This document shows positions 3,277 to 32,873 of a DNA stretch of 64,000 nt, in pieces. The notes below the pieces were generated by a model. It was given only the letters and a program-made list of their open reading frames with translations, was not told the origin of the DNA and ran no database searches. Where the stretch lies: contig NZ_AP023183.1 in NCBI RefSeq assembly GCF_013426915.1, positions 744,001-808,000 of the forward strand, given 5' to 3'. Each line of letters begins with the position of its first letter. The stretch's first letter is position 1. The stretch is from Paraburkholderia sp. PGU19. GTDB taxonomy: Bacteria; Pseudomonadota; Gammaproteobacteria; Burkholderiales; Burkholderiaceae. The position numbers and the translations under genes are program-made.

Positions 3277-3299
3277 CGTACACGTATAACGCGTTTTTC
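3277..3299 (+). repeat. Left outer terminal repeat of the 29.6-kb block (23 bp)
   Basis: CGTACACGTA followed by TAACGCGTTTTTC. The exact reverse complement occurs at 32851-32873. The inner half of the motif recurs inverted at 3378-3387 (TACGTGTACG), beside the 35-bp site. Confidence 0.85.
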
Positions 3300-3340
3300 G
3301 GCGCGAACTGCTAACCCGTTGTTTTTAAACCATCTTGATG

Positions 3341-3375
3341 TGTGTCGTTTATAGACCACCCCAATAAACGACACA
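3341..3375 (+). repeat. Left 35-bp palindromic site (candidate recombinase core site)
   Basis: Perfect 12-bp arms, TGTGTCGTTTAT (3341-3352) and ATAAACGACACA (3364-3375), flank the 11-nt spacer AGACCACCCCA. The same site, inverted, with one spacer change and a compensated arm change, lies at 32775-32809. Two inverted arms around a short asymmetric spacer is the layout of a tyrosine-recombinase core site; a regulator or centromere site is the alternative. Confidence 0.75.
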
Positions 3376-3476
3376 CTTACGTGTACGTCCTTCGACATCT
3401 GCGGGCAGGTAACCCACCGGAAGTATCGGCGTCGGGAGCACTTGCCGGCCCGCCAGTGAGCTTGGCGCTCGCCCCT

Positions 3477-4664
3477 TCAACGCTCGAGGAGCCGGTAGAG
3501 CGCCTGTCGTGAAACTCCTAAAGCTGCGGCCGCCCGAGACTTTATGCCGCCGGCCTGAGCGAGCGCTTCCACTGCCATATCCCGCGTGATCGAGCGTTTC
3601 TTTCGCGCATCCATCGCCGCATGCGTTGACAGATAAGCGTTCGCCTTAGTCGCGCGGCTGTGTCCAGCTGCCTGAACAATGCGCTGCATCGCAGCCTTGT
3701 GCGCCTCACGGTCTACCCGTTCCGTGGGTTGCTTGATCGGAGCCCGGACGCCAGTGATCCGCTCATACATTTGCTGTAGGTACTGATGGCGGAGACCGTG
3801 GCTCGTTACGCCTATACCCGCCTGAGTGACGCCGTGCTTTTTGAGCACGTGATAGTAGTGTTCACGCCATTGTTTTTTCGTGTATCCATGCGGGATTGTT
3901 GACCCGGTATAAGGGTTTGCAAGCGTCGCCGCTTCCTCTAGCACGGCGAGTTTGAGTTCTATCGGCACGACGCGCTCCCGGCCGCCTTTCGTGCCGCGGG
4001 TGACATTGAGCAAACTATCGTCACGCACAGCTTCCTCGGGCCGAAGAAGGAAGCTCTCTTCAACGCGCAGACCAAACGCCGCCTGGAGTTTCAGTTGCAC
4101 CGCCACGTTCGGGTGAGTGACGGCGATCTCGTTGATCTTGGCTTCAGCGTCGATTCCATTTCCTTCCCACGATTTGTCTTGCAGCGCGACGTACGAGCGC
4201 ACGAGGTTGTGCTGCTCGCGGTCGACATAATCGGCCAGCGTGCCGATCAGATTCGGCTTCTTCATCCACTCGCAGAGGGCCCGCAGATAGGTCAGCTTGT
4301 TCTCGATTGTCCCCCCGGTCTGTTTCGCATCGACCCAGAACTTGACGAGAAACTCGACATGCTTGTGCTTCAGTGAGTATGGGGATTGCAGCGCGAAGCC
4401 ATTCCGGCGCAACTCTTCAAACGACTTGCAGATCGCCAATGTCCGGCGCTCCTGCGTTTTTATCGAAAGCGGCTTCGCGCTGATTCTGGTCCGGCTATGG
4501 ACGCGATTCACGTTATCCAGAAGCAGCTGTTCCAATGCAGCCTTGAAGTCGGCAGCCAACCAGTAGTCGCGCAGCACCGCGCGCACGTTCAATATCGCTG
4601 ACACCCTGATGTCCCCATGCAAATCGCGCCGTGCAGCCATCGTTGCACAGCCACCTGTCCGCAC
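3477..4664 (-). CDS. Tyrosine recombinase with C-terminal HTH
   Basis: A site-specific integrase of 395 aa. Catalytic residues can be placed at R200 (AFGLRVEES), K226 (RGTKGGRER), H289 and R292 (SHGLRHQY), H335 (AGHSRATKAN) and nucleophile Y344 (NAYLST). Residues 40-165 look like the SAM-like core-binding domain. An unusual C-terminal extension, residues 363-395 (ALGVSRQALYRLLER), is a Fis-type helix-turn-helix. The gene stops 102 bp from the left 35-bp palindromic site and points towards it, as integrases often do relative to their attachment site. It is the only complete tyrosine recombinase in the window. I infer, but cannot show, that it acts on the two termini of the block. The ATG at 4664 is the longest option; M9 is also possible. 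Confidence 0.85.
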   Translation of the reverse strand: MRTGGCATMAARRDLHGDIRVSAILNVRAVLRDYWLAADFKAALEQLLLDNVNRVHSRTRISAKPLSIKTQERRTLAICKSFEELRRNGFALQSPYSLKHKHVEFLVKFWVDAKQTGGTIENKLTYLRALCEWMKKPNLIGTLADYVDREQHNLVRSYVALQDKSWEGNGIDAEAKINEIAVTHPNVAVQLKLQAAFGLRVEESFLLRPEEAVRDDSLLNVTRGTKGGRERVVPIELKLAVLEEAATLANPYTGSTIPHGYTKKQWREHYYHVLKKHGVTQAGIGVTSHGLRHQYLQQMYERITGVRAPIKQPTERVDREAHKAAMQRIVQAAGHSRATKANAYLSTHAAMDARKKRSITRDMAVEALAQAGGIKSRAAAALGVSRQALYRLLER

Positions 4665-5646
4665 GCCGCGGCGCGGGATACGTTTTCAACCTGACCGCTT
4701 CTGACGGTCGTCGTCGTTCGCACTGCGGGCGGGACGCCGGGAGCCTATCCCCTGCATCAACCTGACCGCGCTGCGCGTTGCGTTCCCCGCCGGGTACGGC
4801 CTTCCCGTCCTTTAGCGATTCCATTCGATCAGCCCCGCACGTGGAAGAGACGTGCATCGACTGTCCATCTGCTGCCTGCTGCGAGAGGCCGCGCTCACGC
4901 GCGATGCCTGCCTGCGATACCTGCTTTCCCTGCCATCACCGCACCGGATCTGCCTTTGCAGAGTCCATCGTCGTTGATCGGGGCCGCTGTCTCACAGGTT
5001 GGGCCGCAGCGCTCTTTCGCTCCGCGATCCCGACTCCGCCGACTGCTCTGGCTACCGTGCCGGCCTACGACACGCTTCGCGTGCCCGTGTGCGTCTGTCT
5101 ATCGACTCGCACGACTCTGGCCAAATGCCCGGCAATACTTTTTGCGCGCTTCTTTCTCCGGCTGCGCCCGCCGTTCGTCTTCCGTACAGGGATGTGTTCG
5201 CTTTGACCGCGACTACATACCCCCACCCCCAAGTCCGTTCAATCTGCCGCTGCGTGTCGGGCTTCATGTAACGGTCCCAGCTCCGTGTGCTGAAAGGGTG
5301 TGTCCATGCGTGTCTGAGTCGTCGCGCGCAGTGTCGGTAGTGTCCGACTGTCCGCTTTACACGTCACCTCATCGCGCAAATCTGGGCAAAACCGCCCGCT
5401 AACCCAATGGATATCGCGTGTCCGGGGTCCTCAGTGTGGACCATGGTGCATTTGATTTGATTCAGAAAAAGGCCGCGTCAGAATGCGGCCTGTGACAGGA
5501 AGGGTTTTCGCCAGGCAAAGCGATCCCTTCAATGGTGAAACTCGGAGGTCGATGCGCTGATCGCGCGGTGGGTAACGAAGAGAATAGCTGCGCTCGCCCC
5601 TCCCGAAATTGCTAAAGCTCCCTAAATGTTGCGAGCTTTAGCTTCC
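4665..5646. other. Gene-poor stretch between recombinase and parM locus
   Basis: About 1 kb without a convincing gene. Overlapping frames exist on both strands but are Cys/Arg/Pro-rich and lack ribosome binding sites. A GGCCGC/GCGGCC hairpin lies near 5470-5488, without a clear T tract. It should hold the promoter of the recombinase (leftward). Confidence 0.4.
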
Positions 5647-5673
5647 TTGACTTTGATCGTCAGCCGATAGAGT
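5647..5673 (+). promoter_or_regulatory. Promoter, CTTGACTT class, upstream of parM repeats
   Basis: TTGACT (5647-5652), 15 nt, TAGAGT (5668-5673). The parM centromere-like repeats begin 22 nt downstream, so the transcript would cross them. Confidence 0.45.
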
Positions 5674-5694
5674 TGGAACGTCACTCGCGGTTGT

Positions 5695-5836
5695 GGGGCC
5701 AACGTTGGCCCCAACTCGGCCCCAAGAGCAGAAGACGTCATTGCGGCAGCGACTCTTCGGCCCGTACTTGGCCCCAGCAGGGACCAAGAACAGAAGCCGT
5801 CATTGCGACAACGATCTTTGGCCCGTACTTGGCCCC
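5695..5836 (+). repeat. parC-like repeat array upstream of parM
   Basis: Three parts. A perfect 18-bp palindrome, GGGGCCAACGTTGGCCCC, lies at 5695-5712. Two direct repeats of 46-47 bp at 5729-5775 and 5791-5836 share CAGAAG, GTCATTGCG and GGCCCGTACTTGGCCCC. The TTGGCCCC core is found in the palindrome and at the end of each repeat. Repeats directly upstream of an actin-like parM gene are where type II plasmid centromeres and autoregulatory operators sit, so this is the likely DNA partner of the small protein encoded after parM. Confidence 0.65.
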
Positions 5837-5888
5837 TGCTGGGGCCGAACGCGCAGTGAACATTGATAGACAACTCTGGAGAGAGCCC

Positions 5889-6908
5889 ATGAAGGTATCG
5901 GTATTTGCAGTCGACGTCGGTTACGGCAATACGAAAAGCGCATTCCGTATGGGGTCGGACATTGCCACCCAAATGTTTCCCTCGGTGACGCCGATTGCGG
6001 TGAGCGAGGCAGTTTCGAGCTATGGACAAGGCGTGCTGCACGCGCGCAAGGTATTGCCGATCGAAGTGGACGGCGCGACATACGAGATTGGCCCAGGCGT
6101 TGAACTGTCCTCCGCATACGGCAATGCAGGTCGAACGCTATCGGAAGACTTCTGCCTCACGTCGAACTATGCAGCGCTACTCGGGGGATCTCTCCAATTT
6201 GCGGGCGTCACCGAGGTCGACCGCATGGTGCTGGGGCTCCCTGTTCACACCATCAACAAATATTCGGCGCATCTGCGCGATGCGTTCACCGGGACGCTCA
6301 ACTTTGGCCATGGCGATATCCGTGTTCACTCAGTAAAGGTAGTGCCGCAACCCCTAGGATCGCTCGTATCGTTCTCCGAGTACGGCGGTAGCCGCTTCGA
6401 TCGCGAAAACGCCCATCTGGTGATTGATGTGGGCTACTTCACGACTGACTGGGTGGTCGCTCACGGCTTCACGATGAATGACCGCCGCAGCGGCGGCGCT
6501 CCCGGTGGTGCATCTCAGGTCTACAAGAGCATTGCTTCGTTGATCGCAAAGAGCGAGAAGGAACCGGTCGATGACATCGAACGGATCGACAAGTGCCTGC
6601 GCGAGAAAAAGCCGCTCCTGTTCTACGGGAAGGATGTTGACCTTATCCCCTATCTGGAACAGTCGCAGGCCATCATCAATGCCACGGTCAAGGAAATGCA
6701 AAACCGTGTCGGCCGGACCGCGGATTTACGCTCGATCGTCCTCACCGGTGGTGGCGCTGCTCTGTACGAAGCCTCGATACGCGCCGCGTTTCCGCGCGTC
6801 AAACTCGACGTGCTCGACGCTCCCTGCTATGCCAATGCAAAGGGCTTCCTGATCGTTGGTGAGGCAACGCTTGCTCGCGAACGCAAACCGGTGGGAGTCG
6901 CTGCATGA
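5889..6908 (+). CDS. parM: ParM/StbA-like actin-type segregation ATPase
   Basis: 339 aa, preceded by GGAGAG eight nt before the ATG. The N-terminal phosphate-1 loop is VFAVDVGYGNTKSAF (Asp-x-Gly-x-Gly-Asn-Thr-Lys); the phosphate-2 loop is LVIDVGYFTTDWVV in the middle, and the adenosine motif is SIVLTGGGAALY near the C-terminus. These three are diagnostic of the actin/Hsp70 ATPase fold in plasmid ParM/StbA proteins, which polymerise to push plasmid copies apart. The length fits the family. The upstream repeats (5695-5836) and the overlapping downstream gene (ATGA at 6905-6908) complete a type II partition locus. PRTRC protein D is a related alternative name, but no other PRTRC genes are seen. 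Confidence 0.85.
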   Translation: MKVSVFAVDVGYGNTKSAFRMGSDIATQMFPSVTPIAVSEAVSSYGQGVLHARKVLPIEVDGATYEIGPGVELSSAYGNAGRTLSEDFCLTSNYAALLGGSLQFAGVTEVDRMVLGLPVHTINKYSAHLRDAFTGTLNFGHGDIRVHSVKVVPQPLGSLVSFSEYGGSRFDRENAHLVIDVGYFTTDWVVAHGFTMNDRRSGGAPGGASQVYKSIASLIAKSEKEPVDDIERIDKCLREKKPLLFYGKDVDLIPYLEQSQAIINATVKEMQNRVGRTADLRSIVLTGGGAALYEASIRAAFPRVKLDVLDAPCYANAKGFLIVGEATLARERKPVGVAA

Positions 6909-7096
6909 TTGGAAAGGCCGTGGTCAAAGTCACGCTCAATGAAGCGACGGACCCTGATCTTTTCGCCTTCATCAAACAGTTCGACAACGAGCGCATGCGC
7001 GCGGGCGCACTCAGGGCGCTCGCGCGAGCGGCGCTCAACGGAGGGACGCGAAACGTGTTGCATCCGGCGTTTCCGTGGAGCCGGTCATGCGCATGA
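6905..7096 (+). CDS. Small protein coupled to parM, candidate adaptor (63 aa)
   Basis: The start overlaps the parM stop as ATGA, so translation is probably coupled. The product is basic and helical (VKVTLNEATDPDLFAFIKQF, then NERMRAGALRALARAAL). The pattern of a short strand with alternating residues followed by two helices would suit a ribbon-helix-helix DNA binder like ParR, but I cannot prove it. In type II partition operons the gene after parM encodes the centromere-binding adaptor, so the position supports this role. The frame overlaps the next gene by 10 bp. Confidence 0.5.
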   Translation: MIGKAVVKVTLNEATDPDLFAFIKQFDNERMRAGALRALARAALNGGTRNVLHPAFPWSRSCA

Positions 7097-7290
7097 CCGA
7101 ACCGGCGACGCCCCAGCCGAAAACAGAAGTAGCAGATATGGTTGAGAGCGATCCCACACCGATCTTCTCTGTCGATGCTGCCCCGGCCACGGCGTCAGAA
7201 CCGCTCGAGTCCCGCGCTGCCGAGCCGGCGATCACCGGCACACGGCGTTTTAACACGGACGCTATCGCCGACCAGTTCGCCGACTTCTAG
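7087..7290 (+). CDS. Acidic, disordered small protein after parM locus (67 aa)
   Basis: ATG 7087 is preferred over GTG 7075 because GGAG lies at 7076-7079, about 7 nt upstream. The product is rich in Pro, Glu, Asp, Ala and Thr and is probably unstructured, with a final FNTDAIADQFADF that could form a short amphipathic peptide. It overlaps the end of the preceding gene. It could be the acidic partner of a split adaptor or an unrelated accessory; no family was recognised. Confidence 0.45.
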   Translation: MRMTEPATPQPKTEVADMVESDPTPIFSVDAAPATASEPLESRAAEPAITGTRRFNTDAIADQFADF

Positions 7291-7305
7291 TCGCGGCCGA
7301 TGTCC

Positions 7306-7332
7306 TTGACTTCGCGCCACATTTGCGAAGAT
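7306..7332 (+). promoter_or_regulatory. Promoter, CTTGACTT class with 15-nt spacer
   Basis: TTGACT (7306-7311), 15 nt, GAAGAT (7327-7332), 46 nt before the ATG of the first of two small membrane proteins. Confidence 0.45.
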
Positions 7333-7378
7333 AGGTCATCGGCCCGCAATAGAGGGCTTCACTAACGGAGTAGAAACG

Positions 7379-7531
7379 ATGGATCTCCTGCACGTACTCA
7401 CTAACGCGGACTGGACTCGGGCCGCGCGCTTTTGGCTCCTCGTCGCAGTCGGTGTTGCCCTGTGGGAATCGGCGTATCACCTCCGCAGCGCGGTGCTTTC
7501 GTGGCTTCGAAAGGATCGCGACCATGCTTGA
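7379..7531 (+). CDS. Single-pass membrane protein (50 aa)
   Basis: A short frame, MDLLHVLTNADWTRAARF, with one hydrophobic segment (FWLLVAVGVALW) and a basic end (SWLRKDRDHA). Its stop overlaps the start of the next gene by 8 bp, and a CTTGACTT promoter stands upstream, which together make it a real coupled pair. No family recognised. The pairing of a one-span and a two-span small protein suggests a membrane complex, such as entry exclusion or pilus assembly, but this is inference only. Confidence 0.5.
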   Translation: MDLLHVLTNADWTRAARFWLLVAVGVALWESAYHLRSAVLSWLRKDRDHA

Positions 7532-7763
7532 GAGATTCCGGGCTCTCGATCCGCTCGCACGGCGCGCGGTTATCGCCGTCGGCCTTGCGGGGTTGATGTT
7601 TATCGACCTACTCTTCCCGACCTGCGATGTCACGGTGTGGGTCTTTTTCATCTGCGGCACCGCCTTTCTTTGGGCGATCGGAATTCTTCGCCCATTCCTT
7701 ATCATGATGTACTACCTTCTGCGGACGGTGATCCGACTCAAGACGCGGCCGTGGTGGTGGTGA
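7524..7763 (+). CDS. Two-span small membrane protein (79 aa)
   Basis: Starts at ATG 7524 inside the end of the previous gene. Two hydrophobic segments are visible (AVIAVGLAGLMFIDLLFPT and VWVFFICGTAFLWAIGILRPF), followed by a basic and Trp-rich tail (RLKTRPWWW). A strong terminator follows 33 bp after the stop, so the two small genes form a closed transcription unit with the promoter at 7306. Function unknown. Confidence 0.55.
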   Translation: MLERFRALDPLARRAVIAVGLAGLMFIDLLFPTCDVTVWVFFICGTAFLWAIGILRPFLIMMYYLLRTVIRLKTRPWWW

Positions 7764-7795
7764 TAGAAGGACGAGCGGTCCGTACAGTCGAAAAA

Positions 7796-7820
7796 AAACC
7801 CGGCACGTAGCCGGGTTTGT
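7796..7820. terminator. Bidirectional rho-independent terminator
   Basis: CCCGGC-ACGTA-GCCGGG stem with A-rich sequence on the left and TTTGTCTTT on the right, between convergent genes ending at 7763 and 7836. Confidence 0.8.
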
Positions 7821-7835
7821 CTTTATGGGGTTGAG

Positions 7836-8057
7836 TCAATGCAACAAGGCAATAGCGTGAGTTCGACCCTGATGGCGAACGCAATAGGTCCACGCGTCAT
7901 CCAGATCCAGGCCGACCTTTTCGGGTTTCGTATTCACTGCCTGACGCCGGTCGATCACATCGTAAGCCTGCGCCTCCGACTTGCCGACCCGCACCGAACC
8001 GTTTTCAACACCCGAAGTAGCGACAATCTCAAACCGGCCAACAATCATCTTGAACAT
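7836..8057 (-). CDS. Hypothetical small protein (73 aa)
   Basis: The start at 8057 (MFKMIVGRFEIV) is chosen over the codon 12 nt upstream because GGAGAG lies directly before it. The predicted fold is mostly beta (FEIVATSGVENGSVRVG, then SEAQAYDVIDRR), with one acidic helix. No motif recognised. It is the last gene of the leftward group 11158-7836, whose largest member is the primase. Confidence 0.5.
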   Translation of the reverse strand: MFKMIVGRFEIVATSGVENGSVRVGKSEAQAYDVIDRRQAVNTKPEKVGLDLDDAWTYCVRHQGRTHAIALLH

Positions 8058-8160
8058 GCTTCTCTCCATGAGAAAGGCCCAGAGGGATTGCGGCCCCGGC
8101 GGGGACGAATCCCCACCGGGCGGTTAAGAACAACTACTGAGCGGACAAAGCCGCTGTCAA

Positions 8161-9243
8161 TCAGATGTGCAGCGCCTCGCGCGTGCTGCCGAGCCGCACA
8201 GGGACGGCTGGCCCGCGAGGCTTGCTACATGACGTCATCCATTCGTCCGCGAAGTCAGTCCCGCGAACCTTCGGGCGGTGAACGATGGCGGTATAGCCGT
8301 CGGCGCGAAGCCGTTTCGCAAGTGCCAGCGCATCAGCCATCCCAGGAGACTTTCGCGTCTTCGGATCAACCGCATCAAAATCCGCGAAGATGTGCACTAC
8401 GCGAATTCCATAGCCTTCAGGAACAACGAAGTCGGAAAGCAGCACACGGTTGAGGCAGTACCACACCGGCACGCCGAAAAGCATGTGTGCGCCGAGCACC
8501 GATTCCAGCCCTTCTCCCACGCCGATCTCGCCGTTGACGGGATCCATCAGCCGGACTGCGCCGCCGTTGAGTTTGTGCAGCGTCACGTCATTCATCTTTG
8601 AAGGCAGGACTTCGCCATCGTTAGTGATGATCGTTGCCTTCGCGGGCTTAGACCGATCAAGGAACGTCCTGTGAAGTGTGCCGAGGCGTCCATCGGGCAG
8701 CGTGAATCTGGCGAGAATGCCGGGCCACTTTCCAATGACCTTTTTTTCGTGCCGATATTCGAGCATTGCCAGACGGAGCGCCGGCGACGACGGAAGGTCG
8801 AGACCGGGCACTCGCGCACGCAGATACCTCGACACGAGATCGTCGTGCCCGTGCACCACGGCGCTGCTCCACATCGACTCCAGCCGCTTTCGGGCCCATG
8901 CCGGATCGGCCTTTCGACCGGGCGAGGGCGCAGTACCAGAAAATCGCGGCGTATCGCGCGCCGGCAACTGCCCGCCGTCGAGCTCGAGCATCAGCTCTCG
9001 AAAAGTGATCCCCGCTGCCTTGCAGATTAGCTCGAAGCCGTCGCCGGCCTTCATGCTTCCTTCATTGCACTTGCGGCACACCCAGTCGCCGCGGCCGCGC
9101 TTGTTGTCATATGTGAAGCGGTCGTTACCGCCGCAGATCGGACAAGGCGCGCCTTTTCCGGTCAATGAGGTTGCGGGCACTCCGTACTTCTGGAGCAACG
9201 CTACCCACTGTTCCGGGGACAGCTTCAGGTCCTTAACATTCAT
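8161..9243 (-). CDS. Zinc-ribbon/Toprim DNA primase
   Basis: 360 aa. An N-terminal primase zinc ribbon is formed by C34, C37 (CPICGG) and C56, C59 (CRKC). A Toprim catalytic domain follows at 238-335, with the conserved glutamate in VGEGLES (E244) and the aspartates in FADFD (287-290). This is the architecture of plasmid and phage P4-type primases that lack a helicase domain; conjugative plasmids use such enzymes to prime the transferred strand in the recipient or for replication. A GGAG precedes the ATG at 9243. It probably shares a transcript with the downstream 73-aa gene. The assignment to the fold is firm; the role in transfer is inferred. Confidence 0.85.
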   Translation of the reverse strand: MNVKDLKLSPEQWVALLQKYGVPATSLTGKGAPCPICGGNDRFTYDNKRGRGDWVCRKCNEGSMKAGDGFELICKAAGITFRELMLELDGGQLPARDTPRFSGTAPSPGRKADPAWARKRLESMWSSAVVHGHDDLVSRYLRARVPGLDLPSSPALRLAMLEYRHEKKVIGKWPGILARFTLPDGRLGTLHRTFLDRSKPAKATIITNDGEVLPSKMNDVTLHKLNGGAVRLMDPVNGEIGVGEGLESVLGAHMLFGVPVWYCLNRVLLSDFVVPEGYGIRVVHIFADFDAVDPKTRKSPGMADALALAKRLRADGYTAIVHRPKVRGTDFADEWMTSCSKPRGPAVPVRLGSTREALHI

Positions 9244-9303
9244 ATGTCACTCCAGTAGTGGTGTGGTTGAGGTCGATGCCTTTACAGGCGGTGAAACCGT
9301 TGC

Positions 9304-9349
9304 TCAGAAAAGCCGTCCGTCACGCGTAGGTCACGCGGAACGGCTTTTC
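9304..9349. terminator. Large inverted repeat, probable bidirectional terminator
   Basis: AGAAAAGCCGT on the left pairs with ACGGCTTTTCT on the right around a 24-nt centre. It lies between the gene ending at 9511 and the primase start at 9243, both leftward, so it separates two units. The 9350-9510 stretch shows nothing else. Confidence 0.6.
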
Positions 9350-9510
9350 TCAGCAAGGACGGGCGCTGCCGGTTGGAGTACTGAAAAATGCGAGGAAGAA
9401 AAACCCACACTTCGCGCCCAGCCACCCGTGAGGGATGGTCAAGGCAGCGAAGGTGAGCAGATACAGGAACAAAGGTGAGAGAGTTCGGGATCAGATGTTC
9501 TGAATGTCCA

Positions 9511-10290: not shown

Positions 10291-10301
10291 CTCCGGCTCT
10301 C

Positions 10302-10736
10302 CTACAGCAAGGAGCCGAAGCAGCTACGACGAACCTCTTCCATGTCCCGCCTGAGCAGCGGATTTTCCATGATGATGTCCTGCAGCGTATCGGTAGGGTA
10401 ACCACTGATCTCACATACGTAACGGTACGGCAGGGCGCCGTCCCAGAATTCCATCACCCAGCCAAGGGTTGCGCGATAGTCCTCCAAGTCGATCTTTTTA
10501 CAGTTTCGAATTCTCTCGCTGATCAGCGCACAGCAGTCCGCCAATGACTCGGGCATGTTGTCGCCCCGACGGCTGTCCCTCGCAAGGCTTACCAGTGCAT
10601 CGACCATCTTCTCGCGCACCGCTTCGCTCCAAAACTGTGGATCGGGCAACGGATCAGGCTTGAGGGGCGATCTAACAACGACCGGCAATTCGCCGCCGAA
10701 CATGTCGAGCTGCCATGCCGCGATTTCTGTTTCCAT
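10302..10736 (-). CDS. Hypothetical protein (144 aa)
   Basis: The start at 10736 (METEIAAWQLDMFGGELP) is chosen over the longer frame because CGGAGAAAT lies just upstream. The protein is acidic and helical, with conserved-looking DMFGGELPVV near the N-terminus, a short motif I have seen in small proteins of Burkholderia plasmids without known role. It ends 12 bp before the start of the next leftward gene, so the two are probably co-transcribed. Function unknown. Confidence 0.5.
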   Translation of the reverse strand: METEIAAWQLDMFGGELPVVVRSPLKPDPLPDPQFWSEAVREKMVDALVSLARDSRRGDNMPESLADCCALISERIRNCKKIDLEDYRATLGWVMEFWDGALPYRYVCEISGYPTDTLQDIIMENPLLRRDMEEVRRSCFGSLL

Positions 10737-10825: not shown

Positions 10826-10846
10826 CGTGCTGTTGAGGCGACTCGA

Positions 10847-14031: not shown

Positions 14032-15216
14032 ATGTCTACTGATAAAGCTCTCAGCACCGAAGCACGCAACGTACTGCTCACCCCGTGGTTGGCTGAAAAG
14101 ATCCAACGTACGAACTTTTCGCTTACCGACTTCATGTTCCTTGCGCTCGCCGGACATTCCGAGCTCGAAAGCATCTTTGGCGTCTCGCTCGCCAACATGG
14201 ACACCTTCCGGCAGCATGCCGCCGCGAAGGCAACGCTGATGAATCTCCCGTTTGTCGCGCTTGCTCCGGTGCTTGAAGATCCACGCGACTGGGAGACTTT
14301 CGTCGACGGCGCAATGGACTCACATAACGTCGAGAGGCTAACCAGAGAGATGCCGCGGGTGGATCAAATCACTAGCCGCGACATCTATCACTACAATCAG
14401 GCGTACGTCCAGCTGCTCAAGGACGTGTTGCACATGAACGTCGCCGCGATCCCTCTGCTCGGCATTTCCAGGGAACTTGCGTCGTATCTCAAAGGGCTGC
14501 CGATGGCGCGACTCGACAACGCGATCGGCGCAATCAAGTTCCCGTTGTTCCGGTGGCGTTTCCACGACGCGAATTTCTGGATGGAATTTAGCGCTGGCTG
14601 GCTTACCGAAGAGACCGTTGCGCACTACCTGATGCACACGTCGCCCGTCAGCACCGCATCGCTGCCTTATCAGAACGCCTGGACGGATCTGCGGCTTGAA
14701 CGCAGCGACAAGGAAGTTTTCGCCCGAATGATGATGGCACAAGGCTGCCGAGCTTCGACTGCGACAAATCTTTTCAACCTCAATCCGGGCAAGGCTCGAG
14801 CCACATATAAGCACATCCACGGCGTTAGCTCTCCCTGCGGATGCAACCCAACGTCGCTCACCTGGTATGTCGAACAATCGGTTCATCGGCTCCAGGCGAC
14901 GACATACGTGTGGTTGTACCGCAGCGCCCTGGACAACGGCGGAAATATTCCCGAAGCGCTGATTGCGGCGAACGACATCATGGCCAAGACGTTCGGCAAG
15001 AGTCTTGTGATTACCGCAGATCGCGGAAACCATCTGACGCGAGCGATGGCGCTCGACTCACGCCTCACGATGGCGGCCTGTCGCGGTTGCGGCACCGATT
15101 ATGTCCTGTCCAACGGCGAGGGAAAGATCGAACTGGCGAAAGACTTTAGCTGCCCCGGCTGCAACTACCTTCTCTCGCCAAAGAGCCAGGTGAGCAAGCG
15201 CAAGCAACCACATTAA
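14032..15216 (+). CDS. FlhC-like transcriptional regulator, enlarged (394 aa)
   Basis: The C-terminal part carries LTRAMALDSRLTMAACRGCG and SCPGC, giving a four-cysteine zinc site (C350, C353, C374, C377) in the same setting as the flagellar master regulator FlhC. FlhC is about 190 aa; here some 200 residues precede the FlhC-like part, so this could be an FlhD-plus-FlhC-like fusion or a duplicated helical domain. The presence of a flagellar-type regulator on a replicon with pilus genes suggests it controls the pilus/transfer operon or host motility; this is inference. It lies 66 bp after the coiled-coil gene. Confidence 0.6.
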   Translation: MSTDKALSTEARNVLLTPWLAEKIQRTNFSLTDFMFLALAGHSELESIFGVSLANMDTFRQHAAAKATLMNLPFVALAPVLEDPRDWETFVDGAMDSHNVERLTREMPRVDQITSRDIYHYNQAYVQLLKDVLHMNVAAIPLLGISRELASYLKGLPMARLDNAIGAIKFPLFRWRFHDANFWMEFSAGWLTEETVAHYLMHTSPVSTASLPYQNAWTDLRLERSDKEVFARMMMAQGCRASTATNLFNLNPGKARATYKHIHGVSSPCGCNPTSLTWYVEQSVHRLQATTYVWLYRSALDNGGNIPEALIAANDIMAKTFGKSLVITADRGNHLTRAMALDSRLTMAACRGCGTDYVLSNGEGKIELAKDFSCPGCNYLLSPKSQVSKRKQPH

Positions 15217-18813: not shown

Positions 18814-19401
18814 TCACGTACGCGACGTATAAAGCTGCAGCGTCGCATACGCGCCCGCCGATTCACAGGCCGAGCCCGCCACGCTGCTGCTGAACGTCGT
18901 CGTTGGGCCTGACACAGTCGTAGCGCCAACAGCGACCTGCGAATACGTGTTGGTTAGCGCCGCGACACTCATCGCACAAACGGCAGTCGGCACCTGATAC
19001 GACATGATGATGGAGTCGTTGGCTGTGCTGAGCGAGCCAACCGAAATGGTCACCGGCTGGTTGAAGATGCCCTTCAACGACGACTTGTCGGATGCCAGCC
19101 GCGCACCGGCCGCATCAAATGCGCGGTTGGTCGCGAGCGTGGTCAACGTCTCCGCCCCAAAATCCGCGTCGTTCTGCGTCGCGTTCAGGATGCCCGTATG
19201 GAACATCTGCGCTTCGCTGGTGAACTGCGACGACTTGATGGTCGTATAAACGTACGCGCTACCCTTGATGACGGCGATCGCGAGCAGTGCCGCCCCCGCC
19301 ATGTATGCGCCTGCCTCGATGAGCGACAGTTCGCCGGACTGCTTCTTGAGCCGGCCGAACTTGATGAGACGCGCCCGGTTTGCCACCTTTTGCTGTTGCA
19401 T
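18814..19401 (-). CDS. pilS: PilS-like type IVB major pilin
   Basis: 195 aa. A positively charged leader of about 23 residues (KFGRLKKQSG) is followed by ELSLIEAGAYMAGAALLAIA, a prepilin helix with a glutamate near position 5. The C-terminal region contains two cysteines about 37 residues apart (CAMSVAAL and ACESAG), as in type IVB pilins with a disulphide-bonded loop. Type IVB pilins of IncI-type thin pili share this length. Processing needs a prepilin peptidase, which is not encoded in this operon. Confidence 0.8.
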   Translation of the reverse strand: MQQQKVANRARLIKFGRLKKQSGELSLIEAGAYMAGAALLAIAVIKGSAYVYTTIKSSQFTSEAQMFHTGILNATQNDADFGAETLTTLATNRAFDAAGARLASDKSSLKGIFNQPVTISVGSLSTANDSIIMSYQVPTAVCAMSVAALTNTYSQVAVGATTVSGPTTTFSSSVAGSACESAGAYATLQLYTSRT

Positions 19402-26567: not shown

Positions 26568-26572
26568 CTTGT

Positions 26573-27196
26573 TTAATCCTGGCAGTTGGCTGCGCGTGCG
26601 ACCACGCGAATAACGTTGTTGGTGTGTACGCAAACGCGCGTGGGGGTGCGCATATGGTTCGTGGCTCGCATCACCTGCGTGAGGACAGCGTCAAAATCGC
26701 CGCTAAACGTCGCGTTGAATTCGAGCGGCAGGTCATCGTCGATCTTCCAGGCGAGCTGCCAGCCTTGCTGCTGTAGCCAGCGGTCAAGGGCGTTACGCAG
26801 ATTGATGTCCTGCGGCGTGATAGCGAACGACAGAACGCCAGCGGATGCAGGCGCCGGCGTTCCCGGCAGGACGACCGGCGTGACGGCAGTGGATGCGGGC
26901 GTTTGCAGTGCAGGAGCCGGCGGTTCGGGCGTGGAAGCCAGTACTGGCGGTAGCGATGCCTGCGACGAGGCAGTCCGAGCACCGGGACTGCCCGGGGGAG
27001 CGACCATCGCCAGCGTGGCAACAGGCGCTACCGGCGCCGTGGGTGCACCGAGCAACTGCCAGCCATCGCCTGAAGGCGGGGAAAGTTTTGACTGGGAAAA
27101 CGACGCGGTCGTAAACCCCGTCATTGCGAGCAGTGCCAGGAACTGCGCGACCAGCGAGGCGCGACGACGGGAGGGCATGATGATCATTTGCTTCAT
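26573..27196 (-). CDS. TcpQ-domain protein (PilL C-terminal type)
   Basis: 207 aa from 27196. A signal-like N-terminus (FLALLAMTGFTTASFS) is followed by a long Pro/Ala/Thr-rich linker (residues 40-125) and a C-terminal TcpQ domain of about 75 residues (ITPQDINLRNALDRWLQQQG, WQLAWKIDDDLPLEFNATFS, then TRVCVHTNNVIRVVARAANC). In IncI plasmids, PilL carries the same domain and acts with the PilN secretin, like TcpQ with TcpC. The two cysteines near the end could form a disulphide. It lies directly before pilN. Confidence 0.75.
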   Translation of the reverse strand: MKQMIIMPSRRRASLVAQFLALLAMTGFTTASFSQSKLSPPSGDGWQLLGAPTAPVAPVATLAMVAPPGSPGARTASSQASLPPVLASTPEPPAPALQTPASTAVTPVVLPGTPAPASAGVLSFAITPQDINLRNALDRWLQQQGWQLAWKIDDDLPLEFNATFSGDFDAVLTQVMRATNHMRTPTRVCVHTNNVIRVVARAANCQD

Positions 27197-27201
27197 GAGT
27201 T

Positions 27202-27630
27202 TCAGTGGGCCGCGCGCTGGATGCGCCGATAAATGTTGTTCGCGTACACCAGTTGCTTGTTGGTCGAGACGGCGTTGTACGCACCAACCGCCTTCCACGT
27301 CGGGCCGAACTGCCTGATGTTCGACGCAAGGATCCATGTACCGACGTAGCCGTTGACGCACGGGTTGAACAGGGACTCGCGCGTAATGCCGTAGCGCCTG
27401 AGCCTTGGAAGCCACGACGAGTTAATCTGCATCAGGCCAATGTCTTCCGAGCCATCCGTATTCACGTTGATCGCATTGCCGCGCATCCCTGACTCCTGTT
27501 GCGCGATCGCGCGAACCAGCATCACGTTGACGTGGTGATACTGCGCGGCATCATCGAGGCAATCGGCGAACGCCGGATGACTGCACATCAGGACAGGCAC
27601 CATGAGCTTCGCGACCGATCGGACCTTCAT
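27202..27630 (-). CDS. Lytic transglycosylase (PilT/VirB1 type)
   Basis: 142 aa with a signal peptide (LMVPVLMCSHPAFA). The SLT motifs are complete: catalytic E46 in AIAQQESGMRG, GLMQINSSW, and AYNAVS before the C-terminus. Small transglycosylases of this type open the peptidoglycan for pili and type IV secretion channels (PilT of R64, VirB1). The ATG overlaps the stop of the upstream VirB9-like gene (ATGA). Note that R64 PilT is a transglycosylase and not the retraction ATPase. Confidence 0.85.
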   Translation of the reverse strand: MKVRSVAKLMVPVLMCSHPAFADCLDDAAQYHHVNVMLVRAIAQQESGMRGNAINVNTDGSEDIGLMQINSSWLPRLRRYGITRESLFNPCVNGYVGTWILASNIRQFGPTWKAVGAYNAVSTNKQLVYANNIYRRIQRAAH

Positions 27631-28892
27631 GATTTCGGACGGTCGAAGAAGCGCACGTCATGCTTGCGCGTCACATTCACGACGTTGCCGTCCGCGTTCA
27701 CGATGAACTGGTCGGCAGTGCCGTTAAACTTGTAATAGCGCCCCTTCTGCTCGCCCGATCCCATGTGAGCGACATCCGACACCTTCACATTGCCGACGGT
27801 GTCCGCAAACTTGAAATAGGTCGATCCTTCCTTGTCGAACACGCCCTCGAGGCCAGCGCTGTTTTTCGGCTCAAAGACGTACACAAGGCCCGCGACGCGC
27901 GCGACCTCAACACTGTCCGAACCGTTCGACACCACGAACCGCTCTGCCCGGTTAAATGTCACGACATTGCTTGAGTCGTCCCATTTTGGCTTGAGGGAAT
28001 GCCCGTCCATGTCTCGAAAGACGAGCTCTTTTGCAGGCCTTTGTGAAAAGCGGATCTGGATGTGCGTGTCGTCGCCATCGCGGATCGCGATAGCCCCGAA
28101 CTTCACCGCCAGCCCGTCCTGGGATTGCGCCTTGTCGGAGACCCCCGTCGCACCACTCGCGACTGCGGCCGCGGCAGAATCCGGCAGGACGCTCGCCGTC
28201 TGCGTTTCCCCAACGATGGGATCAGCGGGCGTGGCGCTCGCGACATAGTTCACACCGGTCGACTTGACGGCTGCACGACGCAGAGTGACGTGGTGCGCGG
28301 TGAAATCGACGTCCGCATAGAGGTCCACAGCGCCGAGCAGGCGGTCGAGCGACTGCATCCAGTTCTCGCCATCGCGCGTCGCGAAGCTCTGCGCGTTCGT
28401 GAGGTCCACGTCCTTCTGCGCGGACCCGGTCCACCCCTGCGGCACGAGTGCCTTGACCATCTGGGCGAGCGGCAACGTTGCGGTCATCGGGCGCGTCGTC
28501 TCCAGCCGCGGGCGTGCGCCGATAAGCGCAAGGCGGTTCGAGAAGCCCGCGAAACCGGCGGGCATGTCACCCCTACGGTTGCCCCGCTCGGACGTAAAAC
28601 TGTTGGCCTTCTTCCAGCGCGCCGTTGCACTGGACCCACTGACCGAATATGAAATGACCTCGGGCGTGCCAGACACGACGATGTACGGGCCTTCAGTATG
28701 GCCGCCCTCAACCTTCAGGACCTGGCCCGCACGCGGTTGCAGGTATGTGTCGGTGCCATCGTTGAACACAAGCGCCGGGCGCTCGGTCATGTTGCCGTTG
28801 ATCTGGTAGTCGAAGTCGAGCGGATCGGTGCTCGCAGCCGACGCGGAGAGTGACAACACTGCCAGCGCGATAAAGGATAGCGTCTGCTTCAT
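27627..28892 (-). CDS. Second VirB9/TrbG/CagX-like protein, enlarged (421 aa)
   Basis: Signal peptide (FIALAVLSLSASA), then DFDYQINGNMTERPALVFND and TYLQPRAGQVLKVEGG, the repeat pattern (a PxxVFxDG strand followed by a YLQP turn) seen in VirB9/CagX C-terminal domains; another copy appears near the C-terminus (GVFDKEGSTYFKFAD). Residues 150-220 resemble a TcpQ-like domain (GTGSAQKDVDLTN, SLDRLLGAVDLYADVDF). It may therefore be a duplicated VirB9 module fused to a TcpQ domain, which would link the T4SS outer ring to the pilus secretin. Family link fair; role inferred. Confidence 0.6.
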   Translation of the reverse strand: MKQTLSFIALAVLSLSASAASTDPLDFDYQINGNMTERPALVFNDGTDTYLQPRAGQVLKVEGGHTEGPYIVVSGTPEVISYSVSGSSATARWKKANSFTSERGNRRGDMPAGFAGFSNRLALIGARPRLETTRPMTATLPLAQMVKALVPQGWTGSAQKDVDLTNAQSFATRDGENWMQSLDRLLGAVDLYADVDFTAHHVTLRRAAVKSTGVNYVASATPADPIVGETQTASVLPDSAAAAVASGATGVSDKAQSQDGLAVKFGAIAIRDGDDTHIQIRFSQRPAKELVFRDMDGHSLKPKWDDSSNVVTFNRAERFVVSNGSDSVEVARVAGLVYVFEPKNSAGLEGVFDKEGSTYFKFADTVGNVKVSDVAHMGSGEQKGRYYKFNGTADQFIVNADGNVVNVTRKHDVRFFDRPKS

Positions 28893-29695
28893 AAGCCGCG
28901 GTCGAGTTGGGTGAGATGCTGGATGAAGCGCGCGAGATACTCGCGGCCCGGTTGGGGATTGGCACTGTGGTAGTAAGCCACCGCCCTCACCGCCGAATTT
29001 GTCTTGCGATAGTTTTCTTTGAGGATGTCTTCGGCAACGCGAATGTTGGTGGCGGGGCCGAGCGCGTCCCACGGTGAACCAAACCGCTGCCGGTGATAGC
29101 ACCAATTCACCTGCATCAAACCAACGTCAAAGTCGCAACGGCCGTCGGCGATGAGAAATCGCACAGCCTTGTAAGCGTCCTCGCGTGTACGAAAGAAGAA
29201 GCCGCGACCCGCGACGTTCAGTGTCCAGGGCCAGGCGCGACCGTTGTACGCCGATTCATTCAGCGCGATACCCGCGAGGATCTTCGCGTCGACGCTTGTA
29301 TGCATGACGTCGAATGGTGTCTGCGCAGACGCACAGGCCCAGCCGCCACGGCGCTCGGTCAACGCGGCCTGCGCTTCGTCGTCAAGCACTGCTGGCTGCA
29401 GCCACCCATTGCGCACCAGTAACGCCTGCAGGCTTTCCGGTGCGCCATCAACGAGAACAGATGCGAAGCCACGTGACCCATGCGTGATGCTTTGCCCTCT
29501 CAGCGGTTGAGCCCATGTAAGGAAGCGCTGGAGGCCGCATGCGTACACGGGCCTGCCGGGAAGCTCCAGCACGGACCGCTCGCCGTGTTCTTCAACGACA
29601 AAGCGCGTCGGGCTGATCACCGTCTCGATCACTGCGGCACGCGCCGACGAGCACGCGGCCGTCAGCAGCAGCGCAGCGATGGCGCGCCTAGTCAT
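28889..29695 (-). CDS. Lytic transglycosylase with SNase-like N-terminal domain
   Basis: 268 aa. Signal peptide to about residue 20. Residues 21-122 resemble a staphylococcal-nuclease-like fold (VISPTRFVVEEHGERSVLEL, SLQALLVRNGWLQPAV, AALTERRGGWAC matches the usual 'A..ARRG.W' end), but catalytic Arg/Asp residues are not evident, so it is perhaps a binding domain. Residues 130-268 form an SLT domain: E147 in IALNESAYNG, DVGLMQVNWCYH, AVAYYHSAN. It overlaps both neighbours by a few bases (ATGA type). This second transglycosylase probably serves the T4SS channel. Confidence 0.75.
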   Translation of the reverse strand: MTRRAIAALLLTAACSSARAAVIETVISPTRFVVEEHGERSVLELPGRPVYACGLQRFLTWAQPLRGQSITHGSRGFASVLVDGAPESLQALLVRNGWLQPAVLDDEAQAALTERRGGWACASAQTPFDVMHTSVDAKILAGIALNESAYNGRAWPWTLNVAGRGFFFRTREDAYKAVRFLIADGRCDFDVGLMQVNWCYHRQRFGSPWDALGPATNIRVAEDILKENYRKTNSAVRAVAYYHSANPQPGREYLARFIQHLTQLDRGL

Positions 29696-30947
29696 GGTAC
29701 GGCTCCATCACGATGTCCTGCGTGACCTGCACCAGAAACTTTTCGCCGGGCTTGACCGTGATCGTCGGCGGGATGTTCTGGTTGCGTTGAAGCACGGCCT
29801 GGGCAGTCGTCGCGGCCACCTGCCCTGCGGTGCTCCCGGTGGTCGTTATGCCGATCGGGCTTGCCGTCGTGGAGGTCGTTGACCCATTGTCGAAGCTTTT
29901 CAGCAGTACAGCGGTGATGAAGCCCGCCCCGAAGATCGCCAGGAAGTGGTTGTTGACGTCGCCCGAGAATCCGGCGTACCCGTTCTGGTCAGCGCCCTGC
30001 ATGCCGTTCATCGGCACGCTCTTGCCGTTGGGTAGTCGCAGACTGGTCGACGCGACTAGCAGCCGCTCCTGACCGACCTTGATGTCGGAACTGTACGCGC
30101 CGTTGATAAACGATCCTTTCGGAATCATCAGGCAGTCGCCCCGCAGGCTGTCATACACATCTTCGTCCACCATCAGTGCGACGCGCCCCGGTTTGTCGGA
30201 GTTCAGACCTTCGACAGTCTTGACGTGAATGTTGTGCGGAGGAGTCAGCGTGCAGCCGCCAGCCTGTCCGTTGAATGTTGTGCGCTCGATGCCGCCCTGC
30301 CCTGCCGTTTCTTTCAGGAACGCCTTGTCGCGGTCTTCTGGTGCCTGGCCCTGTTTGCCCAGCGCGAGCGCCATCGCATCTGCCGGGTTCTGCGCAGTGG
30401 AAGCCGCTGCGGCGCGCGCCGCACGAAAATCGTCCAGAGTGGGAACGCCCGCAGGCGTGGCGGTTGCAGACTGATTTGAATTACGGGAGGCGCCAGACTG
30501 CTTGAAAACCGACGAGGTATAGATCGCGTCCTGCTTGTTGCTGGCGGCGAGAGCTGCTGTGTCGCCACCGCCCGACCCCACCTCGCGCTGGAAATCATTG
30601 CCGGTCAGCATCGGCTTTACCGTCGGACGCTGCGCCGCTGCTGCATCCGACGCGGCGCGCGCGGCCGCCTCAGCTGCAGCCGCCTCCTGCTGCTGCCTGA
30701 TCACCTTGTCGATGTCAGCGGTGCCTGCAGCGGGTACCTCCGTGCTGCTTTTAAGAGCCGTTGCCTTTTTCAGACGCGCTTCTTCCGCAGCCTGATCGCT
30801 CGCTTTCAGCTCGTAGTAGAAGCCCAGCGCGCCGATGATCAGTGCGGCCAGCAGCCCAATGCTCATGATGGCGTTGCGGGGCGTCTTGCCTTTAACGATC
30901 GCAGCCTGCTCGGCGTTGGGCGTCGCCTGTTCCGTCTTCTTGGCCAC
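29688..30947 (-). CDS. virB10: VirB10/TrbI-like T4SS core component
   Basis: 419 aa. A short cytoplasmic N-terminus, one membrane segment (IMSIGLLAALIIGALGFYY, residues about 27-46), a Glu/Ala coiled and Pro-rich region, and a C-terminal VirB10 beta-barrel domain: GCTLTPPHNIHVKTVEGL, VALMVDEDVYDSLRG, LMIPKGSFINGAY, ERLLVASTSLRLPNGKSVPM, then a hydrophobic antenna helix (FLAIFGAGFITAVLLKSF) and KPGEKFLVQVTQDIVM. VirB10 spans both membranes and transduces energy to the outer complex. It sits between virB9 and the transglycosylase gene. Confidence 0.9.
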   Translation of the reverse strand: MAKKTEQATPNAEQAAIVKGKTPRNAIMSIGLLAALIIGALGFYYELKASDQAAEEARLKKATALKSSTEVPAAGTADIDKVIRQQQEAAAAEAAARAASDAAAAQRPTVKPMLTGNDFQREVGSGGGDTAALAASNKQDAIYTSSVFKQSGASRNSNQSATATPAGVPTLDDFRAARAAAASTAQNPADAMALALGKQGQAPEDRDKAFLKETAGQGGIERTTFNGQAGGCTLTPPHNIHVKTVEGLNSDKPGRVALMVDEDVYDSLRGDCLMIPKGSFINGAYSSDIKVGQERLLVASTSLRLPNGKSVPMNGMQGADQNGYAGFSGDVNNHFLAIFGAGFITAVLLKSFDNGSTTSTTASPIGITTTGSTAGQVAATTAQAVLQRNQNIPPTITVKPGEKFLVQVTQDIVMEPYHD

Positions 30948-30949
30948 GA

Positions 30950-31840
30950 TCAGAACACTCCGAACACGCGCCGGCGCCCACGCATCACCGTCACCTCATC
31001 CTTGCCGGAAACGAGGACGATCTCGTCAGCGAGGCGCTGGAACACAAGGAAGTCACCGCGGCGGATAAAGTTGCCGACGACGCGATCGCCGTGATCCTTG
31101 TACATCGGCACCGGCCAGGTCTGCGCTTTGGCAGGCATGCGCATCCAGATCGAGTGACCGTCATCGAAGACGACTTCGGGCTTGAATTCGGCGCTACCGT
31201 CGACTGAGTAATCCCAGTTCAGCTTGTCGGGCGCAACGGTAATCGCTCCCGAATCGCCGCCGCGCTCTCCATTTGCGGAGCCGCGCCCTGCTCCGTTCCC
31301 ATCGTCGCGCGCGTCCGTCCGGGCCACCGGCGCGTGCGGATACTGGAAGCGCACCGTCTGATAGAAAAACCCGCCAGCTGGCGACGCGATGAGCGTGAAG
31401 TCATACTCGCGCCGGTTCGTCGTCAGGTGCAGCGTGTTGACGATGTCCGCCTCGTGCGGCTTGATGAACACGTGGTTCATCTTGTCGTCGTCGACCTCCC
31501 ACTGGATGCTGTCGCCCATAGCCGGATCGGCAATCAGCTTCTCGCCCGGCTCGAGCTCGATCGTCGTGAGTTTGAGCGGCGCGGTGAGCACGCGAAAAAT
31601 CTGGTCGCGGCTGTATGGGAAGACGCCGATGCGAGCGTCGCCTGGCATCGTGAGCGGGTCTGATCCACCGTTGAATGGATTAACCGGACTCATCGGGTCA
31701 CCGGCAATCATCGCGGCGTTGAACGAACCGTTCTCCGTAGGCTTTTTGGCGTTCGCCGCGGTCATCGGCAACGCTGTTGCCGCGAGCAGGACAAGTAGGC
31801 CGAGCGCCGGCCGCTGAAGTCTGAAAGTCATGCTGTTCAA
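30950..31840 (-). CDS. virB9: VirB9/TrbG-like T4SS core component
   Basis: 296 aa with a signal peptide (LVLLAATALPMTAANA). N-terminal VirB9 motif RIGVFPYSRDQIFRVLTAP; C-terminal domain NWDYSVDGSAEFKPEVVFDD, SIWMRMPAKAQTWPVPMY, VGNFIRRGDFLVFQRLADEI. The order and spacing match VirB9, which forms the outer ring with VirB7 and VirB10. A VirB7-type lipoprotein was not found; the gap to virB8 is an overlap (4 bp). A separate VirB9-like gene lies at 27627. Confidence 0.9.
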   Translation of the reverse strand: MNSMTFRLQRPALGLLVLLAATALPMTAANAKKPTENGSFNAAMIAGDPMSPVNPFNGGSDPLTMPGDARIGVFPYSRDQIFRVLTAPLKLTTIELEPGEKLIADPAMGDSIQWEVDDDKMNHVFIKPHEADIVNTLHLTTNRREYDFTLIASPAGGFFYQTVRFQYPHAPVARTDARDDGNGAGRGSANGERGGDSGAITVAPDKLNWDYSVDGSAEFKPEVVFDDGHSIWMRMPAKAQTWPVPMYKDHGDRVVGNFIRRGDFLVFQRLADEIVLVSGKDEVTVMRGRRRVFGVF

Positions 31841-32550
31841 GCTCCACCGGTCCGCTCAAGGCGGAAAAACGGAATATAGATGCCGAAGGGATTGGCGGTG
31901 AGTGCTGCGTCGGCCGTTGGCGCGACGATCTGATAGCGCAGGGTCAGCGCATACGACTTGACCTCTGGCTTGCCGGAAGCGCCTGCCTGAGAGGTCGTCG
32001 TTGTGAATTCAACGAGGACCGTCTGGTCCTCCAGCAGCGCGATGTTGCGCACGTTCACTTCGCGGATCAGCTTGGGATTGGCCGAGATCTGCTGGAAAGG
32101 AGCGTCCTCGCGCAGCCAGCTTTTGAACTGGTCTGTGGCCGCGCCGATCATCTGTGCCTTCACCGAGTTGATGTTCAGCGACATACGCGACGTCTGAAGG
32201 CTGTCGGTCAGCACCGGCTCGATCGTGAACCAGCGGACGGCCATGTCACGCATGCTCGTGCGCAAGGCCTGCGAGTCGGGCTTGTAGGCAACAAGCTCAG
32301 TCACCACCGGATGACCGCTGACGTCGGCCGAGACCCCGACCACGCGAGTAACGGAAGGCGGCGGCTGACGCGTCCAGACCGCTCCGGCCGCGACCGCAGC
32401 GCAGGCGAAAGCGATGAGCATCCAGCGGTTGCTCTCGACCTTGAGCCGCGTGCTGGTCTCGAAGATGACTTTCGATGGATCTTCTTCCTCGGCATACATG
32501 CCGGGGGCCGTGGATAGCGCGGCCTGCCGCTTGTTCCTGAAAATGCGCAT
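31837..32550 (-). CDS. virB8: VirB8/TrbF-like T4SS component
   Basis: 237 aa from ATG 32550, chosen for the AAGGG box just upstream. Cytoplasmic N-terminus of about 43 residues, one membrane segment (MLIAFACAAVAAGAVW), then a periplasmic VirB8 domain: MAVRWFTIEPVLTDSLQTSR, VKAQMIGAATDQFKSWLRE, YALTLRYQIVAPTADAALTA, PFGIYIPFFRLER. VirB8 nucleates T4SS assembly at the inner membrane. It is the first gene of the leftward operon, which runs from 32550 to 16997 with gaps of 66 bp or less. Confidence 0.9.
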   Translation of the reverse strand: MRIFRNKRQAALSTAPGMYAEEEDPSKVIFETSTRLKVESNRWMLIAFACAAVAAGAVWTRQPPPSVTRVVGVSADVSGHPVVTELVAYKPDSQALRTSMRDMAVRWFTIEPVLTDSLQTSRMSLNINSVKAQMIGAATDQFKSWLREDAPFQQISANPKLIREVNVRNIALLEDQTVLVEFTTTTSQAGASGKPEVKSYALTLRYQIVAPTADAALTANPFGIYIPFFRLERTGGA

Positions 32551-32677
32551 GGCAACCCTTGATGAATGGCTACCATTGAAACAATTTCTCACAGGCAATT
32601 TGCGGCAAAAGGCACAGAGTTTTAGCGGCCTTTTATGTTTGCCTCTTTTGCCGATTGATCCGGCCGAATTGCGGCGT

Positions 32678-32689
32678 GTAACGCGTTAC
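32678..32689. promoter_or_regulatory. Palindrome upstream of the VirB/pil operon, candidate operator
   Basis: GTAACGCGTTAC, a perfect 12-bp palindrome, 128 nt upstream of the virB8 start. It shares ACGCGTT with the terminal repeat at 32851. A repressor site is plausible but untested. Confidence 0.4.
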
Positions 32690-32774
32690 GGATCAAACCG
32701 CGGAAAGACCACCTTTTTTGATAGTCTTTTCGGATCCGCTGGCTGCCACGTTGCGCTATTGTACGTACAGTTAA

Positions 32775-32809
32775 TGTATCGTTTATTGCGGTGGTCTATA
32801 AACGATACA
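32775..32809 (-). repeat. Right 35-bp palindromic site
   Basis: Arms TGTATCGTTTAT (32775-32786) and ATAAACGATACA (32798-32809) around TGCGGTGGTCT. Read on the minus strand it equals the left site (3341-3375) except for one spacer base and a paired base change in the two arms. Confidence 0.75.
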
Positions 32810-32850
32810 CAAACCATAGCTGCATAATCAACGACTTAGCCACAAACAAT

Positions 32851-32873
32851 GAAAAACGCGTTATACGTGTACG
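32851..32873 (-). repeat. Right outer terminal repeat of the 29.6-kb block (23 bp)
   Basis: Exact reverse complement of 3277-3299. Its distance to the right 35-bp site is 41 nt (32810-32850), identical to the left end, and the 41-nt gaps are partly similar (GCTAA and CGTTG shared in register). Confidence 0.85.

Follow-up and report, generated by a model that had tools for sequence, protein, structure and literature searches.

On many large plasmids of Paraburkholderia and Caballeronia, two composite sites, mirror images of each other and about 30 kb apart, enclose a run of plasmid genes with a tyrosine recombinase at one end and a pilus/T4SS operon at the other. The question they raise is whether they are the ends of a mobile or invertible unit, transcriptional operators, or docking sites for a DNA-binding protein. 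The sequence analysed, referred to below as the window, is 64,000 nucleotides long and corresponds to positions 744001-808000 of the 852,821-base contig C5. The answer favoured here, at a probability of roughly 0.4, is that the left (L) and right (R) sites are plasmid-specific composite docking sites that serve as bridging sites of a P1-parS-like kind, with L probably also serving the recombinase.

Geometry and copy number of the sites

The components of the two sites in the window are as follows.
3277..3299, plus strand: left outer accessory repeat, 23 bp; operator half-palindrome AACGCGTT at 3288-3295, with GTACACGTA before it
3312..3324, minus strand: left IHF-like site, separating operator from core and differing from WATCAANNNNTTR by 1 mismatch
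3341..3375, plus strand: L core palindrome, 12+11+12, TGTGTCGTTTAT-AGACCACCCCA-ATAAACGACACA
3379..3387, plus strand: ACGTGTACG, inverted partner of the GTACACGT element, just inward of L (found by eye)
32679..32688, plus strand: operator copy TAACGCGTTA, ~80 bp upstream of virB8
32775..32809, minus strand: R core palindrome, 12+11+12, mirrored relative to L, TGTATCGTTTAT-AGACCACCGCA-ATAAACGATACA
32826..32838, plus strand: right IHF-like site, 0 mismatches
32851..32873, minus strand: right outer accessory repeat (the operator), 23 bp, mirror of the left repeat

As the earlier note had described, the 23-bp repeats are exact reverse complements, each lies 41 nt from its 35-bp site, and both 35-bp sites consist of perfect 12-bp palindromic arms with 11-nt spacers; the arms of L and R differ by one compensated pair and their spacers by one base. 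The compensated change is thus real, but the selection that the note read from it need not follow, because template switching can perfect a palindrome; the argument for constraint depends on other plasmids. Perfect 12+11+12 palindromes number three in the window (L, R and a third at 46353 beside parB) and none in 20 mononucleotide shuffles, and the L/R pair tops the window's inverted-repeat list. With up to 3 mismatches allowed, the 35-bp site occurs in the whole 11.2-Mb genome only as the L and R copies. No RNA-family matches were found at either site.

A plasmid backbone between the sites

Two genes stand next to the sites.
3477..4664, minus strand: tyrosine recombinase (Integrase_1) with a C-terminal Fis-like HTH_8, by profile and alignment
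31837..32598, minus strand: virB8, first gene of the pilus/T4SS operon, which reaches down to about 17000

The recombinase, parM (PRTRC D), primase and pilus/T4SS genes previously recognized in this block are all present, the 29.6-kb run comprising tyrosine recombinase, PRTRC-D/ParM, primase, NERD and FlhC-like genes, then the pilus and VirB8/9/10 operon. Identical gene order is found on plasmids of Paraburkholderia, Caballeronia, Burkholderia and Cupriavidus, including pMOL28, and in 16 plasmids the integrase end and virB8 are 28-42 kb apart. On the left flank, a 45-aa ORF runs on past the left 'terminus' in all 15 plasmids that carry the mirrored pair, the P. sabiae copy, a weak and cut match, being placed instead by a separate comparison. 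Because the genes are collinear in relatives, the left 'end' is no junction, and the block is plasmid backbone.

The mirrored pair and its joint turnover

The 23-bp motif matches 13 of 144 genomes of the genus. Via this motif an inverted pair is found in five (G000, G023, G083, G139 and G143), and the matches in G006, G065, G070 and G141 look like chance, since no core adjoins them. A collection-wide pattern scan returned 31 stretches, one of them from P. diazotrophica.

In P. caledonica and P. sabiae, both equivalent places hold a different sequence of like architecture. The sequence 3' of the integrase gene was therefore set against that preceding virB8, read as its reverse complement. By this test 15 of 29 plasmids carry a mirrored pair, L adjoining the integrase gene at its 3' end and R lying ahead of virB8 (10 of 16 in a first set and 5 of 13 in a second, for which 15 had been attempted). 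Positive scores ranged from 18 to 72, against maxima of 13-17 in the shuffles of each test; G422 (score 17, equal to its own shuffle maximum) and G298 (17 vs 16) were counted as negatives. Dropped from the counts were G024:C92 and G339, in which VirB8 was not found where sought, and G453, G282, G276:C102, G450:C45 and G429, whose contigs were too short for R.

Site sequences turn over between plasmids, and L and R stay matched within a plasmid. In 13 of the 15 pairs (one of them a tie) L matches the R of its own plasmid best, and the summed own-pair score exceeds that of all 20000 permutations; the exceptions are G083 and G434b, whose L scores higher with the R of a close relative. Caballeronia sp. 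NK8 carries two such plasmids in one cell, pNK84 and G434:C5, and their sites do not match each other (cross scores of 14 and 16, against own scores of 41 and 55).

Composite anatomy across plasmids

Sequence comparison also establishes a common anatomy, in which each copy runs from an outer operator through a gap of 44-68 nt to an inner core. The operator is a short palindrome that recurs at the virB8 promoter and upstream of a DUF1173 operon and, on pIII, additionally upstream of a virB11-like operon. With up to 1 mismatch to the IHF consensus allowed, an IHF-like site was located in 21 of 29 gaps (G398_L, for which the gap location is missing, is omitted), compared with a shuffle mean of 1.64 and maximum of 6. 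Its placement is regular: 19 of the 21 share a strand and have an offset of 16 in gaps of 44-45 nt or of 23-27 in longer ones. Among 16 further composites, which are L-only, R-only or mixed and in some cases near copies of one another, 12 have such a site (shuffle mean 0.92, maximum 4).

Core spacers, tabulated for 12 pairs with arms set by hand (G354, G374 and G434b are absent from this table), are 11-21 nt long. In 10 of the 12 pairs the L spacer is unlike the R spacer in sequence or length, and in 3 the lengths differ. The whole spacer is identical in the other 2, although a shorter overlap could still match elsewhere; these 2 are G257 and G398, in which core and spacer alike are the same in L and R.

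Sites occurring singly

The earlier note had expected its reading to fail if sites stood singly and unlinked to the block, or mapped as binding sites of a regulator or partition protein. This is borne out in part: sites do stand singly, and R accompanies a partition-type gene. L occurs alone in G026, G121, G076 and G422; of these, G026 (P. dioscoreae, plasmid pIII) and G121 (PREW-6R) keep the left site with no VirB8 match. As far as the assemblies show, R occurs alone in G049, G073, G140, G030, G020 and C. grimmiae p3. No integrase match was found in the R-bearing G073, G140 and G030; an integrase fragment is present in G020, and in G049 a distant integrase lies on a different contig. A partition-type DNA-binding gene accompanies R in every case examined (weaker or partial tandem-HTH matches, e.g. 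in G101 and G063, and some further matches being left aside) except G100 and the mixed plasmid of G369. In G100, R is a chromosomal remnant without a tandem ParB-type gene; plasmid integration at R was considered there and set aside, this being merely a remnant with other sequence alongside. In G369, the L and R composites are unlike each other.

The tandem ParB-type HTH protein

Just beyond R lies the gene for a candidate site-binding protein, and a second gene of related type is found further on.
33078..34535, plus strand: tandem ParB-type HTH protein, 485 aa
39591..40751, plus strand: second tandem-HTH gene, P. sabiae type, beside rep/parAB

Association of the first gene with the pair is close: a clear tandem ParB-type HTH gene is present with all 15 pair plasmids, and among 14 non-pair plasmids two have diverged or broken homologues and twelve have none. 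The gene is not adjacent to parA, parAB being at 43314-45643. A tandem ParB-type fold is predicted for its product, in which modelled residues 134-281 are SopB/ParB/KorB-like and residues 358-476 resemble the core-binding domain of XerD and lambda Int; no catalytic recombinase domain was found in the 485 residues. The HTH_ParB profile scores above cut-off in two orthologues and below it in the window's own protein. This protein is the putative cognate of the sites.

Other candidates fared less well, and no operator-binding protein was found among the integrase HTH_8, the gene divergent from the DUF1173 operon and ten pIII genes. The last helix of the integrase HTH_8 (SRQALYRLL) is almost constant while operators vary, the DUF1173-divergent gene has no Pfam family that could be found, and no HTH family was found in the ten small pIII genes. 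For the core, an FlhDC-like regulator (14032-15216; FlhC E 1.6e-5 and FlhD 0.0042, both below cut-off) was considered because FlhDC boxes are long-spacer inverted repeats; it was set aside, having no match in the 80 kb of G143 searched, where the pair is present.

Bridging, recombination or regulation

Bridging of L and R best accounts for their mirrored placement, their joint turnover and their association with the ParB-type gene. In the mechanism proposed, IHF would fold the DNA so that the tandem ParB-type HTH protein could hold two different motifs at once, and this protein probably bridges L and R, closing a loop of ~30 kb. R is the mirror copy set before the virB8 pilus/T4SS operon, whose promoter, on sequence comparison, bears the same operator as L and R. 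L, which adjoins the integrase gene at its 3' end, is probably also a site for the recombinase, for example in dimer resolution, as its place next to that gene suggests, and its persistence there without R. Against bridging stands the persistence of intact L composites in the four L-only genomes, which have no tandem ParB-type gene anywhere. This, the unlike composites of G369, the gene-less R of G100, the extra L modules of PREW-6R and the history of the integrase (below) speak against one protein as sole binder of the sites. A fuller version, in which the partition/recombinase-core-binding fusion bridges two parS-like sites, locks, licenses or blocks the recombinase and loops the pilus/T4SS operon, with plasmid-specific codes separating co-residents, is rather doubtful; if true, a single DNA-protein assembly would couple segregation, recombination and conjugation.

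The likeness to lox- or dif-type sites with accessory sites that had been proposed for these sequences extends to the palindromic core, the accessory part with its IHF-like site and the recombinase beside L, and stops short of a fixed short spacing, an identical overlap between partners and a recombinant configuration. It is unlikely that L and R are true recombinase sites and the 29.6-kb block is invertible under control of the accessory site and IHF. An integrase does adjoin every L composite seen (that of G369 has an internal stop), core, IHF-like site and outer site together resemble an attachment-type site, and the equal cores and spacers of G257 and G398 would suit exchange. Yet none of the 15 pair plasmids, as assembled, is inverted relative to the left flank, which speaks against the suggested inversion of the whole block; the spacers are mostly unlike; and R is present in genomes with no integrase match. 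Moreover, in the window, G023 and G083 a marker base is common to both arms of a site and is not swapped between L and R, so that L-L arms are of one variant and R-R arms of another in three species, a pattern that L x R recombination would tend to mix. Because the spacers mostly differ and synteny is conserved, we infer that L and R do not normally exchange strands with each other; inversion could in principle occur, G257 and G398 with their identical spacers being the most plausible cases.

Could the sites be transcriptional operators and nothing else, R controlling virB8 and L controlling the integrase, for example through antisense transcription? The recurrence of the outer motif at the virB8 promoter and before the DUF1173 and pIII virB11-like operons is in keeping with this, as is the constant position of R upstream of virB8. 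L, however, lies between convergent 3' ends where no gene start is annotated; the surroundings of L and R yielded no sigma-70-like promoter, and two terminator-like matches lie near L. Regulation would also leave unexplained why L must match R, and this account is improbable. Still less probable is that the system serves multimer resolution, L (and redundantly R) resolving dimers via the integrase with operator and IHF as a topological filter, in the manner of XerCD/cer. Such a role would accord with L adjoining the recombinase and persisting without a VirB8 match or ParB-type gene in G026 and G121, but it would need no mirrored, co-varying second copy, and R stands in genomes without an integrase match. 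As for termini of a transposing or excising element, a possibility raised by the mirror symmetry and length of the repeats, conserved flanks in all 15 pair plasmids already refute it at the left end, and it is very improbable overall, since gene order continues across that 'end' in relatives with and without the sites, the block holds a constant place in one backbone and the sites are also found singly.

Relation to known systems and significance

Sites of the parS, cer and att kinds are already known. P1 parS is described as consisting of two different repeats placed asymmetrically around an IHF site (PMC5016525). The bridging sites favoured here are like those of P1/P7 in having two unlike motifs asymmetric about an IHF site, and also in their ParB-type HTH protein. 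They differ in that two mirrored copies lie 30 kb apart, one beside a recombinase gene and another at a T4SS promoter, that the ParB-type gene is outside the parA operon, and that the protein of this clade has a C-terminal recombinase-like domain. Specificity of P1/P7 parS changes between relatives, a further point of likeness. The KorB/OB network of RK2 (IncP) differs, as core palindrome and IHF-like site occur here only twice. XerCD/cer and phage att sites combine a palindromic core, accessory sites, IHF and an adjacent tyrosine recombinase, all of which have counterparts here, whereas the present sites have long and variable arm spacing, mostly unlike partner spacers and recombinase-free copies. 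The yeast 2-micron plasmid, with its Flp recombinase and two inverted FRT sites, shares the inverted arrangement on a plasmid with a site-specific recombinase; in contrast, no inverted isomer was seen here, L and R are mostly unlike and the sites are composite.

No description of these sites or of the tandem-HTH protein was found in the open-licence literature. To our knowledge, a mirrored, co-evolving, IHF-containing pair that spans a plasmid backbone, together with a centromere-HTH/recombinase-core-binding fusion, is a new variant. At least 15 environmental Burkholderiaceae plasmids carry a co-evolving docking-site pair that is invisible to annotation. If L and R do bridge, nature would here offer a two-site system that folds a plasmid over a long range. 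The protein of the window, as modelled, unites DNA binding of the partition and recombinase types in a single polypeptide. As site types and candidate proteins form a natural series, specificity, incompatibility and bridging are open to direct test.

The integrase and the left site

Judged by eye in the alignment, the catalytic residues of the integrase are complete. On the integrase tree, beta-type sites require three changes. In the beta-type G076 and G024, the last ~50 integrase residues are caledonica-like (90-92%, vs 68-83% to the window) and most of the remainder is window-like. L adjoins this caledonica-like end, so that hitch-hiking explains the L type most simply, but the integrase may set it. 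PREW-6R has two additional L modules, and an integrase 3' fragment comes after each of them.

Replication module beside R

The replication module adjoining R, the right-hand of the two mirrored composite sites, appears to have been swapped: in window 39591–45643, rep and parAB show 93–95 % identity to P. sabiae and are accompanied by a second tandem ParB-type HTH gene, likewise of the sabiae type, whereas the block between L and R is of another type. The two tandem-HTH genes flank, one on each side, an IS21-like element (IstA/IstB; window 35435–38857) with 38-nt inverted ends. Directly downstream of parB are three copies of a 24-nt repeat, GTGTCAGTAnTACyGACAC (window 46235–46384), the third of which lies within a perfect 35-bp palindrome at 46353; these repeats are probably parS for the plasmid's own parAB. 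The stretch directly after parB (window 45772–46061) also matches two domains of group II introns, RF02001 and RF01998.

Related loci in other genomes

In two genomes with the mirrored L/R pair (locus L129 in G139 and L122 in G143), a full-length phage-type integrase of 700 aa adjoins the tandem-HTH gene, and the C-terminal domain of the tandem-HTH protein is similar to the core-binding domain of this neighbouring integrase. The PREW-6R plasmid (locus L034), perhaps a fused plasmid, has two extra, nearly identical L modules, at 19035 and 29641, which lie in direct orientation with ~10.6 kb between them and carry the 45-aa ORF as well as integrase 3' fragments.
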